Assembly (NCBI GenBank): GCA_030849065.1
Contig: JASAON010001603.1
Coordinates: forward strand, 20,960-84,959
Length of the DNA stretch: 64,000 nucleotides
Source: Jaenimonas drosophilae
Taxonomy: Eukaryota; Euglenozoa; Kinetoplastea; Trypanosomatida; Trypanosomatidae
Direction of reading: 5' to 3'
The stretch's first letter is position 1, and every line of letters starts with the position of its first letter. A model generated the notes under the pieces. That model did not search any database and was not told the origin of the DNA. It saw nothing but the letters and a program-made list of their open reading frames with translations. Positions 701 through 21,074 of this stretch are shown one piece after another. The position numbers and the translations under genes are program-made.

Positions 701-3700
701 TTAGCCGATACTGGAAGAACCTCCTGACATGCGGCCCCCCTGATTTAGCTTGTGGTCACAAAACCCCACACATGCAAGAAGTGTCTCCGTCGAGTTATCC
801 AGAAGCTCTGTTGGCATGCAAAGTACTTCGCAGCAATGCTCGTAAAGGGGGTTCAAGGATCTCTCTTCCATGGTACTTGGAAGTGCAGGGATGGTGTTTA
901 GAAACAGCTGAAGGTCTGCGCTACGCGCCATCAAAGAAGTCTCTCCGCATGACCAAGACCAGCGCAATCCAATCACGTGGACAAGATAACTTCGCTGTAG
1001 ATAGCGACGCACATTCGCTTCAGTGAGCGGTTCAGAGCAGAGGCTTTCCGGAGCATCGACCGAAAGTGCAGTGTGAAAAAAGTCCTCAAATGACACAGTT
1101 GGTGCCTCCGCTGCACACCACTTTTGAGATTCACGAATAAATACCATATACCTCCGAGTCATGACCTGGGCCATTTCATTCCACCTTGGAAAACTCTGCT
1201 GCACCAAGCCCCCCACGTACTCCATCACACAACACATCCAGGGGATGATAAGCAAGGCCTCAATGGGCATCCTTGACTTTTGAGTTGCTTGCGCTTCCGG
1301 CATCACTTCGTGGAGAGCAACACACTCCTGTTGCAGTTCCTCGAAAATGCGCACAATCCCTTTGCAGCCATCAAATTCATGCGTTGCAACCGCGTGAACG
1401 CCGACTCCAAGTAGCACAAAGCAGAATGAGCGAACGATTTGAGTATTGGCCTCGCACGTATGACTCACTTGGCCTGGCTGAATCCAATGGAACACTTGAG
1501 GTAGCAAAATGTCTGATAGACATCGAGTTACCATCTTCTGAACCGAGGAAATCTGATCTGGGTTCTCTCCAAAGTGAATCGGCTCTGGTATGCAGCACGC
1601 TGGGTTGCAGCTCCGCAGTTCCTCCCACTGAGGATCATCCGCGGCGGCAGCAAACCTTCCAAAGTGCTTTCGGTGATTATCCACTGCCATGAGAAGAAGT
1701 CTGTTACACGTCTCGTCACCAGTCAGATACACATCCGTCGCAGTAGCGACGATGAAATCAATGCACGATCGGACCATCACGTCAACTACATTGTGCCGTA
1801 TCAGAAAAATGGTTTGGCATCTTTCACACAACGACTCCATTGCAGTAACAACAGAATTAGTGAGTTGGGGAACAGCCACACACGAACAAAGCAACGACTG
1901 GAGGGCAACACAGAGCAGGAGACACCATTCTTCCGCTGGAACTTGAGGATTGCTGACACGGTGAGCCCCTTCACCTTCGGCAATGCTGTCTAATATGGAA
2001 TGGAGAAGTCGCTGAATCATCTGGCCCAAGTGGTCAATTACACTTCCGTCAAAGCAATCTCCATGAGTCTGAATCAACACAAAAAACGCATGTGTCGCGT
2101 GGGCGCGGACAGCAAGGGAGCCGTGAAGCTGAGTTTGCGGTACGAGACCATCAAAGAGTGCCATCCACAAGCTGCCACCGGTCTTTGAAGCCGACGAGTC
2201 AGGGATGGTGACTGTCTCAACCACCACATGTGGAACCTTCCGGATGTCCGCCTCCTCAAGTGTGGCAGTGCTTCTGGACCACGTTAGGACATCCCCAGCC
2301 GTACCAAGTGGTGGAGGCGAGAGAAGACCCCAACGTAGCCACTTCCCACACGCAACCATGTATGAAATTGCGTGTTGTGAAACACATATGTCAGTGCTGC
2401 TGGAAAACGCGGTGATGCACCGAATAAGGTCGCCAAAATAGTCCTTGATGAAACCGAGGTGAGATGTCATGATGCGCTCAGTGACAGCCCAAGCATCCGA
2501 CACCACCTCGGGCATACGAGCAGCAGCTTCGAGAGAGCGAAACACAACCCCCCATCCACTTGCAAGGTGCTCGGCGCGTAGCTCAATCAACTCGGACAAA
2601 ATTTCAACGACGCGCCTCCGGATAGTTGTATCGCTTTGAGACTCCAAAATCTCCAGAAATGGCATCAGCACCGCCTTTTGAAAAGAGTAATTGAGCAACT
2701 CCTCTCTCATGATGTACATCAACGCAACGTAGCGAAGTCCGTCAAGTGCAGCGTGTGACAGCTGCGCAACTGCTTTCCCGGCAGTTATAAACACCTCGCT
2801 TGCGTTCAACCATACATCTCGCCACTGCAGCCGAGTGAAATCATTCACACCAATCGTCACGAAGTCGAATAGCTTCAGCGTAGAGAAAGAGCGGCAATTT
2901 TTCAGTTCTCTGTGACACACTTTCGCCAGCCCATTTGTCATGCGGACTCGAGTAGAAGCGGGGTACCGAGTAGCATCGAAAAATCTCTCAAGCCAAATAT
3001 CTACCATAGTGCTTCGAGAGCTTCGAATGCCAGACAAAATTTTTCTTCGCCGCTCTACAGACTCCCGCGACATGCACGACGGTGCATCATGAAGATCGCC
3101 AAACCATAAGTCTGGCCGCGCGGAGCTCAGCGTAGTGGATTTCGAGCTGTTTGATTCCTCCAAATACTTCCTTGTCTGCCGTGCAAACATTCCCTCCATG
3201 CCATTCGCTAGAGCATCCAGAAGAGAGACCACAGTATAGCCGACGTGCCATCCACGGGAAGAGAGTAAATCGCCATAGCTCATGAATAGATCGAGAAACG
3301 TGCAGAGAAGGTCGATCCGTGGACGTGACATAGTTTTCGGAACAGTCACCTTGCCTGCACGGGAGGAGGACTCAATAATGACAGATTGGGAAACTTCGGA
3401 CAATTGAAAGAGCTGCTCCAGCAAGATCTCGACGTGGTCAGCGCCGCCAAAAGTGCGGCATACACGAACAACCTTGTCAACTCCACTTAGCAAACGCCAG
3501 AAGTAGTCTTTGTTACCGTTCTCCGCCAAGTATAGGTCGCACGCAGCGGTAATTGTTTTGTTGGCTGAGTTTGATGCGCCACCATCAGATGGAGGTGAAA
3601 AACTCTCCGCTTCGCAAAAGAACTGTGCCAATGAAGCCACAAGAATGGGCCGCAGCACATCGACAGTTATCTCCCACATTGGCAGTGTGCACTCCACATT

Positions 3701-6652
3701 CGCAGCCGATGCGTTTACCACCGGTGACGGATTGTCTCCTTCCGATGGTGGTGTGGTGAGATGCTGCTGCAGCGCTACGGTAACCTCCTCTAGAACTTTT
3801 TGCAGTTCAGCCTGATAAGCCGCCTCCCACTTCTGTCGTTTGGGTCCGAATCCATTCTCAACACTCTCTGGAAGAAGAGCAGACTCCGTCGTAGCCGTCC
3901 TCGGCGTCGCCGTGGGAGCAAGATACCGTAGGATGGGAACAGAATTAAGCAATCCAGTTGGAGCGTGAGTCTCAGTGAGTGGTACCTGGTTCCACTGGCC
4001 CTTCCCACAGTTTGAGCACCCGGGTGACGGACGCAAAACAATTTCCTTCTGGGTGATTCTTGTATAAATTCCGGAGAGGATATCGACATCAACGTCATTC
4101 CCTTCGTCGATTGATCGATTGTTGCGTAGGAAGCCATCCAACGTCATCTTTTCCTTTACATGCGGGCTGTGGGCATCGGTATTAAGCATGCATATGGAAA
4201 ATGAAAGGATGAATGCAGTATCAGCAGAGCTAAACACGTTTGGATTTTGCCGGCAGTACTCTGCAGCAAACAGTTCCATCGTTCGATCTACTACTTGGGC
4301 TTCACCGAGGAGCTTAAAGCCTCCGAGAAAAAGTCGAACTGCTTCATCCAAAGCAAGATTTCGGAAGTCGTGCAAGTGGACCCATTCCTCCAAAACCGTG
4401 CGCCATTCGGCACGCTCAAAGCACTTTGCAAAGAATTCTCCGAGGATTGTTTTGTCGATGTACTCCTCTCGGGCCTTGAGAAACACAGCAGTAGCATGAG
4501 CAGTCACAGGATTAGAGCCATCATTTGCTTCGTGGTCAGAGGATCCCTCGCTCCGACAGGTGGATGAACTGCCAAATTCACGCTGCAGATCGACATTTGT
4601 TTGGAAGTACTCTAATGCAGTCCTGGGGCTCGACTTGGTGTTAAAAATGTACAAAAATTTCTTGAAAGCGTCTTTGTAGCGCTTCGTTTGGATGAAGGTT
4701 TCACGCTGAAACATAGTGGGAGAAGGATGGGTGGGCTCCCTTTCAGTCGCCTCGGAGTCATCGTGCTCACCCTTGTCATATGCCGCCTCAATTGTCTCTT
4801 CGTGTTGCGGTGGCACACGTTCAATCATTACTGCGCTGCTCTCAAAACGATCAATCCACTGAATACTGGAGTCCACCAAAGAGAGAAGTGCGAGGAGGGA
4901 TTTTCTTCGTAGTGACTCCGGGATTGCGTAGCCTAATCTCACCGAGATGAAAGAAGGCGGAAGTGCCATTGCCTGAAAGGACCCATGCAATGAGCTACCG
5001 TTACTCAAGTCTTCGGCTGTCTTCTTCGAGCCAGAAGCAGTTCCAGTCATTGATGGTGAAAATGAATTTGCCGAGGTAACCTCTAAAGTCTTCTTCAGAG
5101 ACTCTGGAGCAGCAAATGCTGCTAGGTAGTGCACCATCTCCTCGAATATGCTTTGAGAACGAGTGTCACAATCGTAGTTGATGAATAGACTGATCATGTT
5201 CCGCGGTTCCTCAATGTACTTTTCAAATGCCTCGATTACCAGTGCCTTATGTGAATAGGTCGTCAGAGTTGAGTGAAGAACCCGAAAGTACACATGTCGG
5301 AAGATCGTACTGACCTCATTGACCAAAAGGGCTCCCAACTGAGAATAGCACGTCTGCAGGACACTCAATGAAAGACGAAACACATCAATTGTGCACGATA
5401 CCGTTCCCTTTATTGCAGCCGGGATAACTACATGGCGCACACACTCCAGTATGGCCTCCGAATTACGAAAAACAGGTCCGCCGTTGACTGTCAAATGAAG
5501 CATTATACCCAATGAGCACACAAGGAGGGCATCTTTACTAAGAAAGTTGGACAGTGATCCAAGGGAACTTGGGTCTCCTAGTTCGCAACTGTTCGGTGAA
5601 CCCATACTCTGGCTGCCGCCGCCGCCGGCAACTACCATAGGTGCGCACAGTATAATGCTACTGCAGAATCGCATAACGTGAACGAAGTCACTAACAACGG
5701 ATGTAGTGATAGGGGAAGAACTCCCCAAGACCCTGGAATCCCCAAGTGATTCACATCTCTCAAGCTCCATATTGGTCACCAAACACTTTGCCACATCTTT
5801 CAGGGCAGTTTTTGCGCGAGTCGCTAAGTCTCCCAGTATTACCGGCTTCACGTAAATGTGGCAGAGCAACTGAAAGGCTTTGACCAGGCGGTCATTATGA
5901 ACACTTAGCCGCGCAACAGTCTGACGGTTATCAACCATTTGGGTGACGCTTTGTCGGCTTACCGTGGGAGCACAACAAGCCTGCAGCGCAGCCACTAAAA
6001 CAAACACCAATTTCTCACTGGACTCCTTTGCAAGAATGTAGTCCGCAACCTCAAGGATTGCATCGACAAGCAGAGCGCGCATATCATGAGTTGCGGACTC
6101 TGCTCCCTCCAAAACATTTTCACCAGTTTGTGGGGCGCATTCACTTTGCTTCGACTTCTTTGAAGTTATCCATAGCCTTGAAAAAAATGGCGATCCGGTT
6201 GTCTGCTTTTGAGGATCGTATACGGGCAGAGCTGCTAAAAGTGTGGCGGGAACAAGGCCTGAGTTCAGCACATTTGCAGCAAGCTCAAGAGCTGCAGCAA
6301 GACCTTTCGAAGGATTTTTATACACTCCAACACCATCCGGGGAGAGAGCCAGCCTACAAGAGTACGCCAATCTGCTAACATCATCCACAGAGAGTGCAAA
6401 TTTGCCAATAGCCTTCATGCTTTCTGCACTGCATGGAGGATGCGCGACTTCAGCTCTGTTTGGACTAGATTGCTGCGTTCCTCCATCACCATCAACCCCG
6501 TCGCTCCCACGTGCACCCTTCCCCTTCCCATCCCAACAAGATTTCATTCTCGCCACTGCATCTGATAACAAACTGTGCTCCTTGGATCCACTTTTCAGCT
6601 CAATAAGAACGCGCTCCCCGCTTCCCACCACTTCTCTCCAGTACTGTTCCAT
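701..6652 (-). CDS. Large ARF guanine nucleotide exchange factor (Sec7/BIG family)
   Basis: The 1983-residue product has the architecture of the large Golgi/TGN ARF-GEFs (BIG/Sec7p): N-terminal DCB-HUS region, central Sec7 domain, long helical C-terminal HDS-like region. The HUS box is visible near residue 495 as FINYDCD. The Sec7 domain spans about residues 655-865. It has motif 1 with the glutamic finger (LLGEAQ, near residue 790), which expels GDP from ARF, and motif 2 (SICMLNTDAHSPHVKEKMT). About 35 extra residues sit inside the N-terminal part of the Sec7 domain. By family knowledge it would activate ARF GTPases for coat recruitment at the trans-Golgi. The longest open frame begins with TTG at 6664. 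The first ATG, four codons in, is used here. It is the second gene of the leftward cluster and is AT-richer than most genes in the window. Confidence 0.93.
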   Translation of the reverse strand: MEQYWREVVGSGERVLIELKSGSKEHSLLSDAVARMKSCWDGKGKGARGSDGVDGDGGTQQSSPNRAEVAHPPCSAESMKAIGKFALSVDDVSRLAYSCRLALSPDGVGVYKNPSKGLAAALELAANVLNSGLVPATLLAALPVYDPQKQTTGSPFFSRLWITSKKSKQSECAPQTGENVLEGAESATHDMRALLVDAILEVADYILAKESSEKLVFVLVAALQACCAPTVSRQSVTQMVDNRQTVARLSVHNDRLVKAFQLLCHIYVKPVILGDLATRAKTALKDVAKCLVTNMELERCESLGDSRVLGSSSPITTSVVSDFVHVMRFCSSIILCAPMVVAGGGGSQSMGSPNSCELGDPSSLGSLSNFLSKDALLVCSLGIMLHLTVNGGPVFRNSEAILECVRHVVIPAAIKGTVSCTIDVFRLSLSVLQTCYSQLGALLVNEVSTIFRHVYFRVLHSTLTTYSHKALVIEAFEKYIEEPRNMISLFINYDCDTRSQSIFEEMVHYLAAFAAPESLKKTLEVTSANSFSPSMTGTASGSKKTAEDLSNGSSLHGSFQAMALPPSFISVRLGYAIPESLRRKSLLALLSLVDSSIQWIDRFESSAVMIERVPPQHEETIEAAYDKGEHDDSEATEREPTHPSPTMFQRETFIQTKRYKDAFKKFLYIFNTKSSPRTALEYFQTNVDLQREFGSSSTCRSEGSSDHEANDGSNPVTAHATAVFLKAREEYIDKTILGEFFAKCFERAEWRTVLEEWVHLHDFRNLALDEAVRLFLGGFKLLGEAQVVDRTMELFAAEYCRQNPNVFSSADTAFILSFSICMLNTDAHSPHVKEKMTLDGFLRNNRSIDEGNDVDVDILSGIYTRITQKEIVLRPSPGCSNCGKGQWNQVPLTETHAPTGLLNSVPILRYLAPTATPRTATTESALLPESVENGFGPKRQKWEAAYQAELQKVLEEVTVALQQHLTTPPSEGDNPSPVVNASAANVECTLPMWEITVDVLRPILVASLAQFFCEAESFSPPSDGGASNSANKTITAACDLYLAENGNKDYFWRLLSGVDKVVRVCRTFGGADHVEILLEQLFQLSEVSQSVIIESSSRAGKVTVPKTMSRPRIDLLCTFLDLFMSYGDLLSSRGWHVGYTVVSLLDALANGMEGMFARQTRKYLEESNSSKSTTLSSARPDLWFGDLHDAPSCMSRESVERRRKILSGIRSSRSTMVDIWLERFFDATRYPASTRVRMTNGLAKVCHRELKNCRSFSTLKLFDFVTIGVNDFTRLQWRDVWLNASEVFITAGKAVAQLSHAALDGLRYVALMYIMREELLNYSFQKAVLMPFLEILESQSDTTIRRRVVEILSELIELRAEHLASGWGVVFRSLEAAARMPEVVSDAWAVTERIMTSHLGFIKDYFGDLIRCITAFSSSTDICVSQHAISYMVACGKWLRWGLLSPPPLGTAGDVLTWSRSTATLEEADIRKVPHVVVETVTIPDSSASKTGGSLWMALFDGLVPQTQLHGSLAVRAHATHAFFVLIQTHGDCFDGSVIDHLGQMIQRLLHSILDSIAEGEGAHRVSNPQVPAEEWCLLLCVALQSLLCSCVAVPQLTNSVVTAMESLCERCQTIFLIRHNVVDVMVRSCIDFIVATATDVYLTGDETCNRLLLMAVDNHRKHFGRFAAAADDPQWEELRSCNPACCIPEPIHFGENPDQISSVQKMVTRCLSDILLPQVFHWIQPGQVSHTCEANTQIVRSFCFVLLGVGVHAVATHEFDGCKGIVRIFEELQQECVALHEVMPEAQATQKSRMPIEALLIIPWMCCVMEYVGGLVQQSFPRWNEMAQVMTRRYMVFIRESQKWCAAEAPTVSFEDFFHTALSVDAPESLCSEPLTEANVRRYLQRSYLVHVIGLRWSWSCGETSLMARSADLQLFLNTIPALPSTMEERSLNPLYEHCCEVLCMPTELLDNSTETLLACVGFCDHKLNQGGRMSGGSSSIG

Positions 6653-6818
6653 TAAGAAACTCAAGCTCTACCAAACTGTAATATCATCAAGCTATCTCTT
6701 GCAAGAAAAAGAGACACAAGTGAAAAAAAAAAAGCACAATCACTACCAAATCCCTCACCCTGTCATCTCACCACCATTACCCAAAAGTATCAGCAAACCA
6801 CAATAACAACCGCTTTCT
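6653..6818. other. Intergenic region between the two leftward genes
   Basis: Short spacer holding the 3' end of the coiled-coil transcript and the 5' end of the Sec7 transcript. It is A-rich on the plus strand (A runs near 6705-6735), so T-rich in the leftward transcripts, consistent with a pyrimidine tract for trans-splicing. Confidence 0.5.
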
Positions 6819-7979
6819 TCAAACCCTTCCACTGCCAGCTGCAAAGGCAACTCCCCTCCCATCATCTACGGCACGCTGGAGTCTAAAAACTTCTTCATCT
6901 GCCTTCACACACAACGCACTTGCAATCTCCTCCTCACCTCGCGCGCTGCGTAGCATTGCTGTTGCTTCCTCCAGCCTCGAAAGTACATCGCTCACCTCTC
7001 GCTTCCTTCCAACGATTTCCTCAGAAAGCGCCTCCACCTCAGCACGATGTTCACAAATCAGATCATCAATCTCATCATTCAGCTCCTCAACCTCTTCATG
7101 CTCAGCCAAAACAATACCTTCGAGTTCCCCCACAGTACCCACAAGATGTTCAACCTCAGCAGCAAGAGCCTCCTTCTCCTGACGCAATGCTTCAAGCTGG
7201 CCCTCGAGATCATGTGTCTGTTGCTCCGTCTGTGGAATTAATTCGTGGAGACGTCCAACCTCAGCAGCAAGAGCTTCCTTCTCCTGACGCAATGCTTCAA
7301 GCTGGCCCTCGAGATCATGTGTCTGTTGCTCCGTCTGTGGAATTAATTCGTGGAGACGTCCAACCTCAGCAGCAAGAGCCTCCTTCTCCTGACGCAATGC
7401 ATCAAGCTGGCCCGCGAGGTTATCTTTTAGTGTGGCAATTGCTGGATCAGGCTGTGGGAACGGTGAAGGAGACATGTTATTGCAAGGAAGGGAAGGGCTC
7501 GGAGATGAGGTAGTAGCTGTTGCGAAATTGGTAAGAAGATTGGCAATTTCGCTTTCGTAGAATAATGTGTCGTGCGCCGATATGGCAACGTGAGAGGTTT
7601 GTTGTTGTGGGAGAGGGTATGCAAATGGTATAGTTGCTGATGGTTGCATCTGTGATGCGTGGAGCTGATAGGCCTGGTGGAGGTGGAAACGGCAGGAAAG
7701 TTCATCGTAATCAACGGATGTACGATGGAGCTCGCACTCAAGTTCCAAGATTCGTTGAAGTTGGATTGATGCCTGTAGGTAATCACCTGGTGAAACGCCG
7801 TTTTCTCCCGTGTGTGTGAAGGATGAATTTTCTTTTGGGAGTTGATGCGCAATAATTGGATTGCAATTCTGCGAGACGTTCAGAGCATCTCCTGTTCTGG
7901 TTTTCCATCTATTGAAACTGTGAAAGTGAAGCAGCAAATCTGCAACCTCGCACTCGGTGAAAAATTGATCGCTATGCAT
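6819..7979 (-). CDS. Repetitive coiled-coil protein, unknown function
   Basis: 386 residues; not recognised as a named family. The C-terminal half is a long predicted coiled coil rich in Leu/Glu/Gln. It contains tandem copies of a 35-residue unit (core LRQEKEALAAEVGRLHELIP) that are almost identical in DNA. The N-terminal half is less regular and carries two related short motifs (FFTECEVADLLLHF and LFYESEIANLLTNF), which suggest an older internal duplication. The ATG at 7979 is genuine. Upstream in the leftward sense lies a pyrimidine tract ending in a likely acceptor AG (plus-strand CT at 8011-8012). It is the first gene of the leftward cluster, next to the strand-switch region. A cytoskeletal or scaffold role is only a guess from the coiled coil. 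Confidence 0.75.
   Translation of the reverse strand: MHSDQFFTECEVADLLLHFHSFNRWKTRTGDALNVSQNCNPIIAHQLPKENSSFTHTGENGVSPGDYLQASIQLQRILELECELHRTSVDYDELSCRFHLHQAYQLHASQMQPSATIPFAYPLPQQQTSHVAISAHDTLFYESEIANLLTNFATATTSSPSPSLPCNNMSPSPFPQPDPAIATLKDNLAGQLDALRQEKEALAAEVGRLHELIPQTEQQTHDLEGQLEALRQEKEALAAEVGRLHELIPQTEQQTHDLEGQLEALRQEKEALAAEVEHLVGTVGELEGIVLAEHEEVEELNDEIDDLICEHRAEVEALSEEIVGRKREVSDVLSRLEEATAMLRSARGEEEIASALCVKADEEVFRLQRAVDDGRGVAFAAGSGRV
7150..7412 (-). repeat. 105-bp in-frame tandem repeat within the coiled-coil gene
   Basis: Copies begin at about 7156, 7261 and 7366 (same phase, exact 105-bp spacing). The first two are nearly identical through their full length and the third is partial. The unit encodes 35 residues, five heptads, so gain or loss of a unit keeps both reading frame and coiled-coil phase. 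Confidence 0.9.
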
Positions 7980-8684
7980 TGGCTGATCCTGAAAGCAGTA
8001 GTCTCAGTCGCTGGTCGGGAAGAAGGAGAGGGCAAGCGATAATGAAACTCCACCATGCAGCCGCGAATCAATATGCATTCCCCGCGCGATGAGCAACCAC
8101 AAAACTTGTGAAGGCAGCAATTGCAGGTACACAATCCAAACGATCCAAAGCGCAAGTACAAGGCAACACCCCACACGTCAAAAGTGTTTGCGAGAACCAT
8201 GGCGAATGCACTACGCTTTGGCGGCCGCCACCCATACGGCGAATCTGCGAAGCACCGGGGCATTGCCGGGGAATGCCAAACTCCGCACCAACTCACGCCA
8301 AGAAGGGCCCTCCATTTCCCCCACAAGCCAAATCCGCCAAACACACAGTAAGCAGTAAGCTTTAGAACATTCAGAAGAACAGCCGCGCGTATGAAGGAGG
8401 CGACCCCCCCCCCCCCGCGCCGAACCGGAGGGCAGAACAACAACCCCGCCAAACCAGATTCGACGCAGCCCGAGCGGAAGAACAGATTCAAACGCGCGGT
8501 ATAAAGATTTCCCGCACGCAGCAGCCGAACCCGGCACGGGCACCCGCCGCACAAGAAGATAACCGCGGCGGGGGCGGCGGTTAAAGCGCCACGCCCCCCC
8601 CCCATTCAACCAAAATGCCCCGCAGCCGCGGGGGGGGCCTTCGGGTTTAGCAACAAACAAACGCGGGGGAACATGACCCAGCAT

Positions 8685-8712
8685 CCCCCCCCCCCAAAAA
8701 AAAAAGAAAAAA
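8685..8712 (-). promoter_or_regulatory. T-tract/G-tract element, left arm of the strand switch
   Basis: On the plus strand this is C11 followed by A10, a G and more A. Read leftward it is a T-rich tract followed by G11. It lies about 700 bp upstream of the first leftward start codon (7979) and mirrors the element at 9864-9898. A promoter role is inference. Confidence 0.4.
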
Positions 8713-9863
8713 ATCACTCGCCCAAGTCGGAAAAGGGTCTGCTGGTTTCATCCGGCGATCAAAAAAGGCAACCGCCCACCGCCGGCGAAGAAGCCCACAC
8801 ACCATTTGGCTGGACCCGGAAAAGCCCTCGCCCGTTCAACGCGCGCAGGTGTTTTTTTCCCGAAGGCCAAGCCGCGCTCCCGCCCACAGGAAACTGAACC
8901 GCGAAGAGAATTCAGGGGGACACAAAATTGTTCAGAGATTGACGGGGCTTGGATCGAAGGAATAACATCAGAAGCAATATTAAGATAACGACAACCCTTC
9001 CAAGTTTCCTTCAGCGGAGAAGCGTGCTCTTTTCCTTGGGCCAGGATATTTTTGTTTGCGAGCTTGTCCAAACCCAGGCAAACTATACCGGCGGCGGTTG
9101 GGCGGTGCGCCGGCCCCCGTTGGGCCTGGGGCGTCGACCCCCCATTTCCGCGAAGGAGCCCCCCCCCCAACACCACACAGGAAATGGAGAGAATTCGCAT
9201 TTTCACGAATAGCGCAAAGCGAAAACTCTTGGGGGGGGGGGGCGGTTGCTGCCCGCGCCTCCGGAAATTATAGTTCGCAAAAGGGAACGCCCGCCGCACC
9301 ACCGCCAGGATGAGCCGGAATGCCGGATGCAGCGCGGCCCATCGGCAGCGGGGGCCTTTTTCGGAAAAGCAATAATGGAATGCCGGGCCCCGGTGGCTTG
9401 AAGGGTCTTGTCGGATGGTTCGCGCACGCATTTTCCCCTGGGGGCCGCGGCCCTCTCCTCTGTGGCGCGGGGGTTTTCCCCCGCCGCCGCCGGAATGTGG
9501 GGGCCCGTTCCAGCCCCTCGGCAGCTCGACCATATGGCTGCGGGGGGCCTCCGTGGGGTTGGCAGGCGCCGCCAAATCCGGAAAAGCCCCTCTGGGAGGC
9601 TTGGCGGCGGGTTTTGCGCGGGGTATTGCATTCATTTTCCGAGGGGGGGGGCTCTTCGGCTGATGATTCGCGTGGCGTTCGGCATTCTTGCTCATCCTGG
9701 CTGCTTTGCGCGGCGCGGGCCTTTCCATCGCGCAATGTCTGGTCAGGGGGGTGGGTGGGTCTGGGAAATGAAGCAATTCTGCTGGAATATTGATCGCGTT
9801 TCGCTGCCCTAAGAATGTCGTCGCATTGCCCCGCCGCCGTTCCGGTAATTTGGATTTGCCTCC

Positions 9864-9898
9864 TTTTTTTTTTTTTGTGTGTGTGTGTGTGGGGGGGG
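9864..9898 (+). promoter_or_regulatory. T13-(GT)7-G8 element, right arm of the strand switch
   Basis: A run of 13 T, seven GT dinucleotides and eight G lies about 650 bp upstream of the first rightward start codon (10552). GT-rich DNA is reported to be able to drive Pol II initiation in T. brucei. Whether this one does is inference. Confidence 0.45.
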
Positions 9899-10551
9899 AT
9901 TCCCCAGGTAAAATCGGATATGCGGTTGGAGGGGCGGAAAAGGGGATTCTCCGTGGTTGGCCATCGGTAACCAAACCGGTTCATTGTAAACTGTTGGTGC
10001 TTTTGGCGGCGGGTGGCGTCTCCATCCGCGTTTGGTTGGGTCGGCGTTTGGTTTGGGGGGGCGGGCATCGTTTTGGCGCCGAATCGCAGCGGGTGTCGCT
10101 TTGTGGTTTCGCGTGCCCGCTGGAAACCCCCCTTTGGAAAAGGGGGGGCCCGAACTTTATTTTCTATAGAAGTTGTTATTTGTGTGTGTGTGTCCGCGTT
10201 GTGGTGGTGGTGGTGGTGGGCGGGTATTTCTTTCAGGCATAGTGAAAAGCACTTCCCTCTAAAACCAATGCGCTTTTCGGCCCTTGGCCGCGGCTGCTCT
10301 CGGGGTGTGGGTTTGGGGCGGGGGGGGGGGCGGTTTGGAAGATCAATACGTGTATTGGGTGGTTTCTCCGCTGCGGGGCTCCGGCTTGGTCGTCGGAGGG
10401 GGGCTAGTGGGTTATTCGGCAAATTTTCATCCTGGTGGATCGTTTACGCTGGATGGTGGGGTTGATTTGAGTTGGGTCAATAATTGATTGATGCTGGTTT
10501 CTCCTCTGTTTTTTTGTTATTTTTGTTTCTGTGAGGATTAGGCGGTGTGTC

Positions 10552-10953
10552 ATGCAAGAGGAAGTTGCGGATGTTCCACTGTCGCTGGTGACAGAAAGCA
10601 TAAATCAACGCGTTACCGTAGAAACGACACAGAATGGCGTCTACTGCGGTAAGTTAACAAATATGGATCAAAAAGGGAATCTTGAATTAGCTGATGTCAA
10701 AATTCAAAACAGAGACTCATCGTGGACGATATGTGAACGCCTACAGATAAAGGGCTCCACCATTCGTTTGATCCATCTCCCACGTGAAATCAAGCGTGCT
10801 CCTATGGTCCAGTGGGATAAAGAACACGTCGTTCAGTATCTTAAGAAATCATTGAGGTTGCATAAGAAAAAGCACTCTGTGAAGGCTGCGCGTTTGACCC
10901 CTGCAAATAGTGAGAAAAGACAACGGGATCGCCGACTCAAGAAATTGAAGTAG
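10552..10953 (+). CDS. Sm-D3-like core spliceosomal protein
   Basis: 133 residues. Residues 1-80 form an Sm fold that reads like SmD3: Sm1 with TVETTQNGVYCGKL, then Sm2 with LQIKGSTIRLIHLP, followed by the SmD3-typical KRAPMVQW. By family knowledge SmD3 is part of the heptameric ring on U1, U2, U4 and U5 snRNAs, which kinetoplastids need mainly for trans-splicing. The C-terminus is Lys/Arg-rich (ends KRQRDRRLKKLK), longer than the Sm core, with no clear RG repeat. The frame is open back to a GTG at 10531, but acceptor AGs at 10533-10534 and 10540-10541 fall inside that extension, so the ATG at 10552 is chosen. It is the first gene of the rightward cluster. Kinetoplastids also have variant Sm proteins in U2 and U4, so the exact paralogue is not certain. 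Confidence 0.82.
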   Translation: MQEEVADVPLSLVTESINQRVTVETTQNGVYCGKLTNMDQKGNLELADVKIQNRDSSWTICERLQIKGSTIRLIHLPREIKRAPMVQWDKEHVVQYLKKSLRLHKKKHSVKAARLTPANSEKRQRDRRLKKLK

Positions 10954-11111: not shown

Positions 11112-11990
11112 ATGGGAGATATGCTGGCAAAACCAGAGTCGCAGAAATTTTCTACAGTTTTCGAAACTTCGCATCTGCGAGTGGGTTGCTGTAGTATGCA
11201 GGGATGGAGAAAGACGATGGAAGATGCATTCATTGCGCAGCTGAACTTGGACAATAACAAATCCAGAGCTTTTTTCGGAGTGTTTGATGGACATCAATCA
11301 GATGAAGCGTCACGGTATTGTCGAGAGTTTCTTCTTCAAAAATTCACTAGTGCGCTTGATTCTCATGGTGACAACTATACTGAAGCTTTCGAAGAGACGT
11401 TTAACGCCATTGATGAACAGATCTGCCAAAAATATAGTTCGAGTGGAACCGTCGCAAACTGCATCTATATCTCTGACAAAAAGATTGTTTGTGCAAATGC
11501 AGGTGATAGTAGATCTGTCCTTTGCCGCAATGGGACACCTGTCCCATTAAGCTTTGATCATAAGCCGTTTCATCCAGGTGAACAAGCTCGAATTCAACAT
11601 GCAGGATGTCATGTTGAGAACGGTCGTATCAATATGGCTCTAGCCGTTAGTCGGGCCCTGGGAGATGTAGATTTCAAGTCAAACGAGGCCCTCTCGTGGA
11701 AGGAACAGGCTGTAACAGCCCTTCCCGATGTTCTTGTTTTCGATACGTCTGACCAAGACAATTTTATTGTGATGGGATGCGACGGAATTTGGGACGTTCT
11801 TTCCAATGAGGAATGCTGCGAATTTATTCGAGAAAGGCTATACCCAGCGAATGCTGGCGAAAAAGTGGATATTGGTTTAGTTTGCGAGCAAGTATTAGAT
11901 CGCTGTCTGGCGACATCTAACACAGTTCGTGAAGGAACGGATAACATGACGCTGATTGTGGTACAGTTCAAACCTCCCTTTTTTGAGTAA
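11112..11990 (+). CDS. PP2C-type serine/threonine protein phosphatase
   Basis: 292 residues covering one complete PPM/PP2C catalytic domain. Visible motifs in order: RKTMEDAF, FFGVFDGHQSDEA, ANAGDSRSVLCRNG, ALGDVDFK, VMGCDGIWDVLSNEE and TDNMTLIVVQF. The metal-coordinating Asp residues expected of the family (in MED, FDGH, CDGIWD and DNMT) are all present, so an active Mn/Mg-dependent phosphatase is likely. Substrates are unknown. The frame opens at a TTG at 11046, but a pyrimidine tract with acceptor CAG lies near 11075, so the ATG at 11112 (MGDML) is used. The N-terminal MGDML is not a convincing myristoylation site. Codon use is AT-richer than in genes further right. Confidence 0.92.
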   Translation: MGDMLAKPESQKFSTVFETSHLRVGCCSMQGWRKTMEDAFIAQLNLDNNKSRAFFGVFDGHQSDEASRYCREFLLQKFTSALDSHGDNYTEAFEETFNAIDEQICQKYSSSGTVANCIYISDKKIVCANAGDSRSVLCRNGTPVPLSFDHKPFHPGEQARIQHAGCHVENGRINMALAVSRALGDVDFKSNEALSWKEQAVTALPDVLVFDTSDQDNFIVMGCDGIWDVLSNEECCEFIRERLYPANAGEKVDIGLVCEQVLDRCLATSNTVREGTDNMTLIVVQFKPPFFE

Positions 11991-13673: not shown

Positions 13674-13872
13674 AACAAAAGGTGCAAATGGGCATCAACT
13701 CAACTCAATTACTCAGATTATATATATGATTTCAATCAGTCTTTATTTGCTTTTTTTTGCAGGCTTGTTTCCACGAGCACCAAACTACTCCCTTTTCCTT
13801 CTTGATGCGACGTAGTGATAGGCCCTTAGCGTGTCACGTGCGTGCCAGCCGTCGAAGCAAACTGGCCAATAT

Positions 13873-16065
13873 ATGGAAGCTTCTCCATCCCAGAGCCTTC
13901 CATCCGTAGCTGCGGGTTGTCCCGAACCGCAATGTGGGCCATTGATAGCTTCCTCAAATCAAACTCCTATTCTCATTGTTCCTACTGATGTGATTGTTCA
14001 GAAGCTGAAGCCTTTGTGCTCACTCTCAGAAAGCCGCCTACGGGAGCTTGTCGAGTCTTACGATGAGGCAAATGTTGGAGGCTTGTCGGAAATTCAATGG
14101 GCTTCATTTTGCCGTCACAACCGTAAACTCATAGCTTCTCTAGGAGAGAGTATTGTTGATTTTGATAGCTCTGGTGAGTACTCCATTGCGACTGTTGAAC
14201 ATGGTGACATTCCTCAAACCATCAAAAGAAACACTACTCTCGACGGTGTGGCGCAGGGTGTTGTTCGGTTCCTTGAAGGGTTTGTTGCTGGAGGCATTGC
14301 TGGCGCTGTTAGCAAGACGATCATTGCTCCAGGAGATCGAGTGAAGATCATTTTTCAAGTGGACTCGAGCCGCCGTTTTAGTTTTCGAGAAGCCATACAG
14401 CTGGGGGTACAGACTGTGCGAGAATTTGGTGTAACCGGGTTGTGGATAGGCAATGGAGCAACAATGCTTCGCGTTGTTCCCTACGCAGCAATCACTTACG
14501 TATCATTTGACTTCTATAACAAGCTGTTTCAAGCTGCCCTGAACCAAAATGAGAACGGAGACACCATTAGTGAACGTCGCGCTGTGACTGTCAGATTTCT
14601 CAGCGGAGCCTTAGCCGGCGCAACATCCACGACTTTCACTTATCCATTGGATCTCATGCGGGCCCGATTTGCTGCGCGCAGTAGTTCTGGGAAGAGAAGA
14701 TTTCCGAGCTACATAGTAGCTTTTCGTGAAGCTACTGCGAAGGATGGGATCAAGTCGCTGTACTCAGGACTCTTTCCAACTGTTGTTGGAATCATGCCAT
14801 ATGCTGGCTGTAGCTTTGCATGTTTTGAGACCATTAAGCACTACCTCGTTCGTGTGAACCACTACCATAGTGACAAGGACATTCCCACTTGGCAGCGACT
14901 TGCGGCCGGCGGATTTTCTGGATTGATTGCTCAGTCTGCTACGTACCCCCTTGACATTGTCCGTCGGCGCATGCAGGTAACACCTGGGCGTTATCGTGGC
15001 ATATTGCACGCACTGAGCGTTATCTATCGTGAAGAAGGTCTGCGCCAGGGCCTCTACAAAGGTTTGGCAATGAATTGGATTAAGGGCCCGATTGCCACTG
15101 CAACTAGCTTCACTGTCAACGATCTTGTGAAGCGCAGAACACGTGGGTACTATGAAACGACCGCAGTGCACTCCAGTAAGGAGAACGTCCTCACACTGTC
15201 AGAGGCGTTCGTCTGTGGCGGGGTCGCCGCTGGAGTGGCAAAGTTCTGGTCGCTACCATTCGACCGACTCAAAATCATGTACCAGCTGGGACTCACAGAT
15301 GGGACCATCGTCGCCTCTCACTCGGGTAACCTATCGCGGCTGTGGCATCTTGTCCGTCGGAGCCCCAACGTATTCTCCTACGGACGGACCACAATGATGC
15401 GCGTGGTTCCTTACGGCGCACTTACGTACTGCTCGTTTGACGTCTTTCAAACCGTAGCTGAGAGGCTCATGTACTCCCATCACCCGTCCTTTGCAACAAA
15501 TTTTGTTGCTGGTGCCGCGGCTGCGGCGTTGAGCACTTTCTTGGTGTATCCTCTCGATCTTCTTCGCACTCGAAGTGCAGCTTGCTGCGTTCCCAGCTTC
15601 CAATCTTACTATTGGTTGTTTCGAGCGTCTGCCCGCCGCCATGGCATTCCTTCTCTGTGGAAGGGGTGCTACCTCTCAATGGTTGGAGTAGGGGTCATGG
15701 CAGGTATGGGGTTTGCAGTTTACGAAGACTTCAAGGAGCGCTTTGGTTGTGACACTTTCCGCTCGCGGCTGGTGGTGGGAATGACTGCAGGATACCTGGG
15801 TCAAATCTTCACTTACCCACTCAGCGTAGCAAAGCGCAATCGCCAGGCCGAACAAGTTGTCTTTGCCCGCATGGCCAAACCACTGGATGCCGTATTTGCA
15901 AAGCCAAGTCTCTACCGAGCTCTCTATCGCAAAATGCCCTTTTCATGGACCATGAATAGCCTGACTTTTGGAATTTCCTTCGCCGTAAATGATGCCTGCC
16001 GGGACCTAGTAGCAACAGCGAGAAAAGACCTGGTTAGCAACCTGGTGCTATTTCCACACTCCTAG
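13873..16065 (+). CDS. Tandem fusion of two mitochondrial carrier (SLC25) units
   Basis: 730 residues, over twice the usual 300-residue carrier. After about 130 non-carrier residues come six carrier repeats, i.e. two complete three-repeat carriers (about 135-420 and 430-725). Each repeat carries the Px[DE]xx[KR] signature: PGDRVK, PLDLMR, PLDIVR in unit 1, and PFDRLK, PLDLLR, PLSVAK in unit 2. The last has lost its acidic residue. Unit 1 repeat 1 (KIIFQVDSSRRFS and MLRVVPYAAITY) resembles the CoA/nucleotide carriers SLC25A42/SLC25A16. The matching MMRVVPYGALTY in unit 2 suggests the halves arose by duplication. It should sit in the mitochondrial inner membrane with 12 helices. The frame opens at GTG 13831; ATG 13873 is the first ATG. 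The role of the N-terminal extension is unknown. Confidence 0.9.
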   Translation: MEASPSQSLPSVAAGCPEPQCGPLIASSNQTPILIVPTDVIVQKLKPLCSLSESRLRELVESYDEANVGGLSEIQWASFCRHNRKLIASLGESIVDFDSSGEYSIATVEHGDIPQTIKRNTTLDGVAQGVVRFLEGFVAGGIAGAVSKTIIAPGDRVKIIFQVDSSRRFSFREAIQLGVQTVREFGVTGLWIGNGATMLRVVPYAAITYVSFDFYNKLFQAALNQNENGDTISERRAVTVRFLSGALAGATSTTFTYPLDLMRARFAARSSSGKRRFPSYIVAFREATAKDGIKSLYSGLFPTVVGIMPYAGCSFACFETIKHYLVRVNHYHSDKDIPTWQRLAAGGFSGLIAQSATYPLDIVRRRMQVTPGRYRGILHALSVIYREEGLRQGLYKGLAMNWIKGPIATATSFTVNDLVKRRTRGYYETTAVHSSKENVLTLSEAFVCGGVAAGVAKFWSLPFDRLKIMYQLGLTDGTIVASHSGNLSRLWHLVRRSPNVFSYGRTTMMRVVPYGALTYCSFDVFQTVAERLMYSHHPSFATNFVAGAAAAALSTFLVYPLDLLRTRSAACCVPSFQSYYWLFRASARRHGIPSLWKGCYLSMVGVGVMAGMGFAVYEDFKERFGCDTFRSRLVVGMTAGYLGQIFTYPLSVAKRNRQAEQVVFARMAKPLDAVFAKPSLYRALYRKMPFSWTMNSLTFGISFAVNDACRDLVATARKDLVSNLVLFPHS

Positions 16066-20141: not shown

Positions 20142-21074
20142 GCTGCCATCACAGTTGTCCACACTGGTGGACAGCGACGGGGAGATGTATAAAGGTTTTG
20201 CAACACAAGGTTTATCTGCGCCAAGGGTGCTCCGGGGGGGGGAGGAGGATGATCGCACCACCGGTGGAGTATGGCTCCTGGTCAGTGTGAGTGGGTGGTT
20301 TGCTCTGTGCAATGCAACTAGCCACCCAACGCGCATCATCTTTTTTTTTTTTTGGCCACCTCCTCGGAGCCATAACCTGCTTCCGATTCCCCCTTCTCGA
20401 GCGTTCAATAGGTGCTCGGCTACCCATCATGGAGGGGGGGGGGTGGCCACTACCCCCATCTGCCTTTGCGGTGCTTATCTTTACCACTTGATCGCCCCTT
20501 GATGGATTTATTTTTTGTTTGTGCTTGTTCCGCTGGTGAAGATCGCGCCCATGATCCCTCTCCAGGGCTGTTGCGCGGTGAGGAGATGGCGACGACCGGG
20601 ACGACGCGTTACTGTACTTGGACGCGGGCAAGTGTTTCCATATCCTTCATCCATAGCAGCAGGCAGATCAACAGGACACAACTGTTTTGACTCCACCTGC
20701 ACAGCAACTCAACTCTGTTCTTTCTTGTTTTTTGAGATGTCCCAATGTCGTTGTTTGATGCAGCAATGCACACTATGTTCTGTTTTGGACTTGTTCAACA
20801 ATTGTGATGCCGTGGGGAGCCGCTGACCGCAAGGAGCCCACTTTGCTTCGGTCATTGCCCCAGCTCATTATCTCAACGCGGCAGCTCATCCCAACTTGCC
20901 TGTGCCCAAGATGGATTGATGTGTGCTACTGAATGCTAGTGAGGTGGTGATATTGCCACTTTTGCATATCGTCTCATGATTAACGTACTCATCTCTGGCT
21001 TTCCTGCGTATCTACATTTCGTTTTAGTTTGGTGTTTCCGATCTTTAGTCAGTCCAGCATCGCGAGATTTCAAC
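20142..21074. other. Long intergenic region with G and T homopolymer tracts
   Basis: 933 bp without a supported gene. It contains a G run at 20234-20241, T13 at 20341-20353 and a G run at 20434-20443, which recall the strand-switch region. Acceptor-like AGs at 21026-21027 and 21047-21048 follow a T-rich tract and precede the cytochrome oxidase start. An in-frame ATG at 20976 lies upstream of these acceptors and is unlikely to be used. Confidence 0.6.

Follow-up and report, generated by a model that had tools for sequence, protein, structure and literature searches.

A divergent strand-switch region (dSSR) at positions 7980-10551 of the window (the whole stretch of 64,000 nucleotides analyzed here, C312 20960-84959 in an assembly of 18.79 Mb and 370 contigs) changes from A/C-rich to G/T-rich on the plus strand at ∼9.2 kb. 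This flip is real, strong, and local. The region probably, although by no means certainly, consists of two directional GT-rich Pol II start regions placed back to back, from which two polycistronic units (PTUs) would be transcribed outward. The ORFs taken as genes lie on the minus strand both in the window up to 8 kb and ahead of it in C312:1-20000, and on the plus strand right of 10.5 kb; the gap between them is therefore a divergent strand-switch region. Pfam families were present on both flanks, in the two directional gene clusters that diverge from it. The locus comprises:

701..6664, minus strand: Sec7-domain protein of the leftward PTU (domain match)
6819..7979, minus strand: first leftward ORF, a 386-aa coiled coil (ORF list, repeat analysis)
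7980..10551, no strand: dSSR (ORFs on the minus strand to the left and on the plus strand to the right; V amplitude)
8011..8050, minus strand: pyrimidine-rich tract and AG (complement of CT, 8011-8012) ahead of the first leftward ATG (by eye)
10496..10541, plus strand: pyrimidine-rich tract and AG (10540-10541) ahead of the first rightward ATG (by eye)
10552..10953, plus strand: LSm-domain protein, first rightward gene (domain match)
11112..11990, plus strand: PP2C-type phosphatase of the rightward PTU (domain match and relatives)

A search for relatives of the 386-aa coiled-coil ORF found none, and the left edge of the strand-switch region is less certain for this reason. The same ORF contains three 105-base direct repeats in frame (7144-7458; 97% and 73% to the reference copy). 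For the PP2C-type phosphatase, the top match had 69% identity, and relatives from Porcisia (66%), Strigomonas (65%), and Phytomonas EM1 (64%) were among the best 120 of 1847 matches listed; these relatives indicate that the genome belongs among the trypanosomatids. The two pyrimidine-rich tracts are likely trans-splice acceptors. Two candidate spliced-leader patterns gave 0 matches, and neither ARAGORN nor Rfam at gathering scores detected RNA genes in the 64-kb window. Two ORFs inside the strand-switch region (8748-9974 and 9268-10422, both minus) had no Pfam family above cut-off and were rejected as genes. Farther to the right, a 744-aa ORF (13831-16065) contains five mitochondrial-carrier stretches and perhaps comprises two fused carriers. 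No published account of this locus was found in a non-exhaustive literature search.

The original prediction was that skew changes sign once, near 9200, with C runs to the left of this point, G runs to the right, and a G8 at 8630 as the exception. This description was accurate: cumulative skew over 7980-10551 turned once, with minima at 9178 (GC) and 9226 (G+T minus A+C, hereafter keto; −257), and all runs were located as described. The T-A minimum, at 9380, lies later than the GC and keto minima. The two arms and their axis are:

7980..9226, minus strand: left arm, A/C-rich on the plus strand and thus G/T-rich in the leftward sense; C runs of at least eight bases at 8404 (13), 8594 (10), 8685 (11), and 9159 (10); A10 at 8696
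8630..8637, plus strand: G8, the sole run of at least eight bases against the polarity; part of an inverted repeat (imperfect, 75%) that includes the C10 at 8594
9178..9231, no strand: flip axis, between the C10 at 9159 and the G12 at 9231
9227..10551, plus strand: right arm, G/T-rich on the plus strand; G runs of at least eight bases at 9231 (12), 9643 (9), 9891 (8), and 10320 (11); G7 runs at 10055 and 10142; T13 at 9864; GT and GGT repeats

Keto skew was −0.206 in the left arm and +0.282 in the right arm. After removal of homopolymers of at least four bases (and of GT repeats on the right), it was −0.178 and +0.215, and with each run collapsed to one base −0.150 and +0.205. With 1-kb arms, the largest keto flip in the 64 kb was at 9228 (0.466; next best outside, 0.294; SD 0.098), and with 1.2-kb arms at 9347 (0.500 vs 0.205). 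With 600-base arms, a bigger flip was found at 7195, inside the coiled-coil ORF (0.457 vs 0.337 at 9347), which means that the flip of the strand-switch region is conspicuous only at the ∼1-kb scale. The V amplitude was 12.4; 65 PTU-internal windows averaged 2.7 and reached 6.0 at most. Block shuffling yielded neither the GC nor the TA flip of the dSSR (each 0/500). GC skew of the outward sense strands was 0.108 (left) and 0.224 (right), TA skew 0.338 and 0.364; G and T are over-represented on the coding strand of both arms, as in GT-rich start regions. The G excess of the right arm is not a spill-over of PTU-wide bias, because the sense strand of the rightward PTU is C-rich (GC skew −0.090 outside ORFs and −0.081 at third codon positions, vs +0.224 in the arm) and its G4Hunter clusters (10552-64000) are mostly minus (10 plus, 28 minus), that is, on the template strand and opposite to the arm. 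For T, PTU and arm are skewed in the same direction (+0.15 outside ORFs, +0.22 at third positions, and +0.36 in the right arm). GC content was 0.58 in the dSSR and 0.54 in the rest of the window.

The order of the runs is a weaker feature than the flip in composition. When run labels were shuffled, p was 0.096, 0.076, 0.017, 0.038, and 0.076 for runs of at least 4, 5, 6, 7, and 8 bases, respectively; by itself, without composition, the order is only suggestive. Markov shuffles of each arm (1000 trials) gave a mean of 0.34 and a maximum of 4 C runs on the left (observed, 4), and a mean of 0.97 and a maximum of 5 G runs on the right (observed, 4), so that the right-arm count alone is not extreme. 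An inverted duplication as the source of the mirror was ruled out: the longest inverted pairs between the arms span 31 and 21 bases and are homopolymer-based.

Predicted G-quadruplexes (G4s) also followed the flip. G4Hunter, also called for by the original prediction, returned four minus followed by ten plus clusters in the dSSR at a threshold of 1.5, without exception (p 0.001), and one exception (8622-8655) among 17 at 1.2. The dSSR, 4% of the length of the window, holds 14 of its 53 clusters (5.44 per kb vs 0.63 in the remaining window). A motif search added:

8677..8695, minus strand: canonical quadruplex motif
9746..9765, plus strand: canonical G3+ quadruplex motif
10302..10330, plus strand: canonical G3+ quadruplex motif

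Elsewhere in the window, a G9, a T13, and a G10 lie within ∼210 bases between two plus-strand ORFs (20234-20443), possibly an internal start region.

By analogy with T. brucei, GT-rich sense strands may direct initiation. Each arm would then be a dispersed, directional Pol II start region, in which G and T stretches on the outward sense strand would make the DNA poor in nucleosomes and favor initiation in that direction, and two such elements back to back would give the change of composition at ∼9.2 kb. At T. brucei start regions, long G or T stretches make up most of the 10-mers over-represented on the coding strand, and synthetic GT elements drove expression in a direction-dependent manner and were depleted of nucleosomes (PMC5579346); according to the same paper, G-to-C and T-to-A skew had been reported earlier for L. 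major and T. brucei. The arms share with these regions the G/T-rich sense strand and the long G and T stretches; they differ in that similar flips occur at convergent boundaries of the present genome. In L. major, G-tracts were found near TBP/SNAP50 sites but were judged neither sufficient nor universal: almost half of the predicted initiation sites had no G-tracts, which also occurred elsewhere (PMC2679053). Long G or C tracts in a strand-switch region are common to both organisms; the L. major tracts are peppered genome-wide and absent from almost half of the sites, whereas runs are rare inside the PTUs examined here. The start-region reading is supported by the divergent ORFs (Sec7 on the left, LSm and PP2C on the right), by the local flip axis (9178-9226), which run removal barely alters, and by a keto V exceeding Lambda at four of five dSSRs of this genome. 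Against it speak the less certain left boundary, the patchy occurrence of G-tracts at L. major initiation sites, and the description of L. major divergent strand-switch regions as AT-rich (PMC2679053), the dSSR here being GC-richer than the remaining window.

The dSSR was compared with other PTU boundaries of the same genome, 12 in all: five divergent (the window, C3b, C14, C220, and C295), three convergent (C3a, C364:146k, and C226), and four head-to-tail (C364:32k, C351, C367, and C348). C3a, C3b, and C14 came from contigs with G8 runs and eight others from a list of G15 runs, with picks made by eye for G-to-C order (C87, C189, C220, and C364:146k), C-to-G order (C285, C295, C364:34k, and C351), or runs on the same strand (C226 and C241); of these, two with G-to-C and one with C-to-G order did not stay in the set, and three C-to-G sites were extended. 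This selection inflates run density and tilts the retained set towards C-to-G. L001-L008 overlap C3. Excluded from the 12 were L013 and L015 (no boundary recognized), L025 (C241:4000-8500, about half N), L016 (C87; no clear genes, near a contig end), and L017 (C189) and L020 (C285), both cut by contig ends. For the last three, G4Hunter corrections for V and Lambda were 8 and 8 (L016), 3 and 4 (L017), and 4 and 5 (L020), and keto V and Lambda were 1.1 and 4.5 (against V), 4.9 and 1.4, and 5.8 and 2.0, respectively. Genes were defined by ORF length and Pfam because a codon-usage gene finder was too weak. Pfam-backed genes flanked C14, C3a, C226, and C351 on both sides; at C3b, C364:146k, C220, C295, C367, C348, and C364:32k, at least one flank relied on ORF length or on a putative gene (the right-hand ORFs of C295 and C364:32k). 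ORFs in the gaps were treated as non-coding (e.g., 344 aa in C220, 421 aa in C295, and 278 aa in C364:146k), those of C220 and C295 having no Pfam match. N content was 86 in C220 and 108 in C364:32k.

Runs of at least eight G or C amounted to 2.4-6.5 per kb at the 12 boundaries, compared with 0.075 per kb in the rightward PTU of the window and none in leftward stretches; in this partly run-selected sample they occurred at divergent, convergent, and head-to-tail boundaries alike. A C-left/G-right order around the keto axis was found for 30/46 runs of at least seven bases at dSSRs (p 0.054), 24/34 at convergent (p 0.024), and 33/51 at head-to-tail boundaries (p 0.049), counts that are biased upward, since G and C enter into the keto axis. 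Around an axis from T and A only, the counts were 27/46 (p 0.30), 24/34 (p 0.024), and 30/51 (p 0.26), and around the midpoint 28/46 (p 0.18), 21/34 (p 0.23), and 29/51 (p 0.40). Genome-wide, runs of at least 13 G occurred at 230 places, with 47 clusters of at least two runs; neighboring pairs were C-to-G in 23 cases and G-to-C in 17 (p 0.13), on which ground G-run polarity was dropped as a rule of the genome, and 53/93 pairs were on the same strand (p 0.12). Searching for C8-to-G8 and G8-to-C8 within 60 bases showed no preference (255 vs 247 overlapping matches). The clean mirrored run order of the window is thus the extreme of a weak tendency, not the rule of the genome. Two other arrangements were seen: about eight runs of at least eight G, all plus strand, within ∼190 bases (C363:90400-90591), and a G8-spacer-G8 pattern present three times, 211 bases apart (C117:21053-21512), likely a tandem repeat.

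The keto V exceeded Lambda at three of the four head-to-tail and two of the three convergent boundaries, in addition to the dSSRs mentioned above; the excess was above 3 units at 6/12 boundaries compared with 1/65 PTU-internal windows. By block shuffling (500 each), the keto V reached p ≤0.010 at eight of the 12 (four dSSRs, two convergent, and two head-to-tail). Both G and T skew had p <0.02 at four (the window, C295, C226, and C364:32k). Among the convergent boundaries, C226 gave 0/500 shuffles, the flip of C3a was in G/C only (keto V p 0.002; TA p 0.53), and C364:146k points the opposite way (V 5.3, Lambda 8.3). One dSSR, C3b, has no flip (V 1.9, Lambda 3.2), which counts against the start-region reading. 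So does the same-sense flip at two of three convergent regions, where outward promoters are not expected: our own expectation, not a published criterion, had been that the flip would be specific to initiating boundaries. The flip thus does not simply follow outward transcription, and outward promoters alone are insufficient for it, in a sample that is small and partly biased. Of the original prediction, a divergent strand-switch region whose outward sense strands are GT-rich, the composition published for Pol II start regions (PMC5579346), stands; read as a rule of G-tract polarity, the prediction is not supported, given the mixed run polarity elsewhere and the same-sense flip at convergent and head-to-tail boundaries.

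The serious rival to the start-region reading, possible but on balance doubtful, is that a replication start (possibly also a centromere) left the flip as its imprint, with a leading strand that is G/T-rich on both sides regardless of the direction of transcription. Whether in a divergent, convergent, or head-to-tail setting, early-S regions of L. major (AcH3/base J/KKT1) change locally from negative to positive in G as well as T skew, and their G4s lie on the reverse strand upstream and on the forward strand downstream; internal AcH3 sites flip in T skew only and have G4s centered on both strands (PMC7511235). The dSSR resembles the former: both of its skews flip from negative to positive, and its G4s, predicted here and mapped there, are mirrored likewise. 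In addition, V called for fewer corrections of the G4Hunter clusters than Lambda did at 11 of the 12 boundaries, two of three convergent ones included, with one tie (C364:146k). This figure leans to V, because eight of the 12 came from G15 runs and three of them were pre-known as C-to-G; without these three (C295, C364:32k, and C351), it was 8/9 with one tie. The order was individually significant only at the window (C226, p 0.051). Furthermore, just three convergent boundaries were sampled, one of them pointing the other way, and L. major has one such locus per chromosome (PMC7511235), whereas both skews flip here at 4/12 sampled boundaries, which is not a per-chromosome count. Stranded SNS-seq origins of T. 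brucei have poly(dA)/poly(dG) upstream and poly(dT)/poly(dC) downstream (PMC13179062). The A10 at 8696 and the T13 at 9864, on the left and right sides of the axis, respectively, fit the poly(dA) and poly(dT) of this pattern; C upstream and G downstream do not, the G/C order being reversed. In the same study, start, end, and head-to-tail regions of T. brucei were reported as not enriched for such origins (PMC13179062). Initiation sites in L. major have raised G4 levels but are reported as AT-rich (PMC12890776), in contrast to the GC-rich dSSR (0.58). Slightly more doubtful still is the broader proposal that an AC-to-GT flip with mirrored G-rich strands occurs at PTU boundaries of any orientation and marks the polarity of replication (or of origin and centromere) rather than promoter direction, the window being its cleanest copy.

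The original proposal that the G-richness of the sense strands exerts its effect by way of R-loops or G-quadruplexes trailing the polymerase is improbable. The density of G4Hunter clusters in the dSSR would agree with it, as would the canonical motifs, two on the right and one on the left sense strand, and in L. major RNase H1 binds strand-switch regions, which have raised DRIP signal (PMC11807225). Yet these motifs number just three despite the many G runs, and T. brucei R-loops were reported not to depend in any obvious way on positive GC skew (PMC6294496). It is most improbable that the homopolymers arose in part as artefacts of assembly or sequencing, despite the fact that 31 of the 230 G13+ places are found no more than 1 kb from a contig start (∼4.5 expected by our own arithmetic from 370 contigs and 18.79 Mb), that runs reach C42, and that N blocks adjoin some clusters, since the flip survives homopolymer removal and the runs of the window are modest (13 at most). 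The assembly itself seems to break at G13+ clusters, and in C241:4000-8500 ∼2.2 kb of N directly adjoins C15, C17, and C9 runs.

The region is mostly ordinary, because its strand-biased G/T-rich flanks resemble those described at start sites of Leishmania and T. brucei. GT skew with G and T stretches has already been published for T. brucei start regions (PMC5579346), as has a local flip with mirrored G4s for early-replicating regions of L. major (PMC7511235). What marks Pol II start sites in these parasites, in the absence of conventional promoters, continues to be debated. Because convergent boundaries of the same genome show a similar flip, the compact and unusually clean flip found here, in another trypanosomatid, offers a natural sequence for separating promoter from replication polarity.
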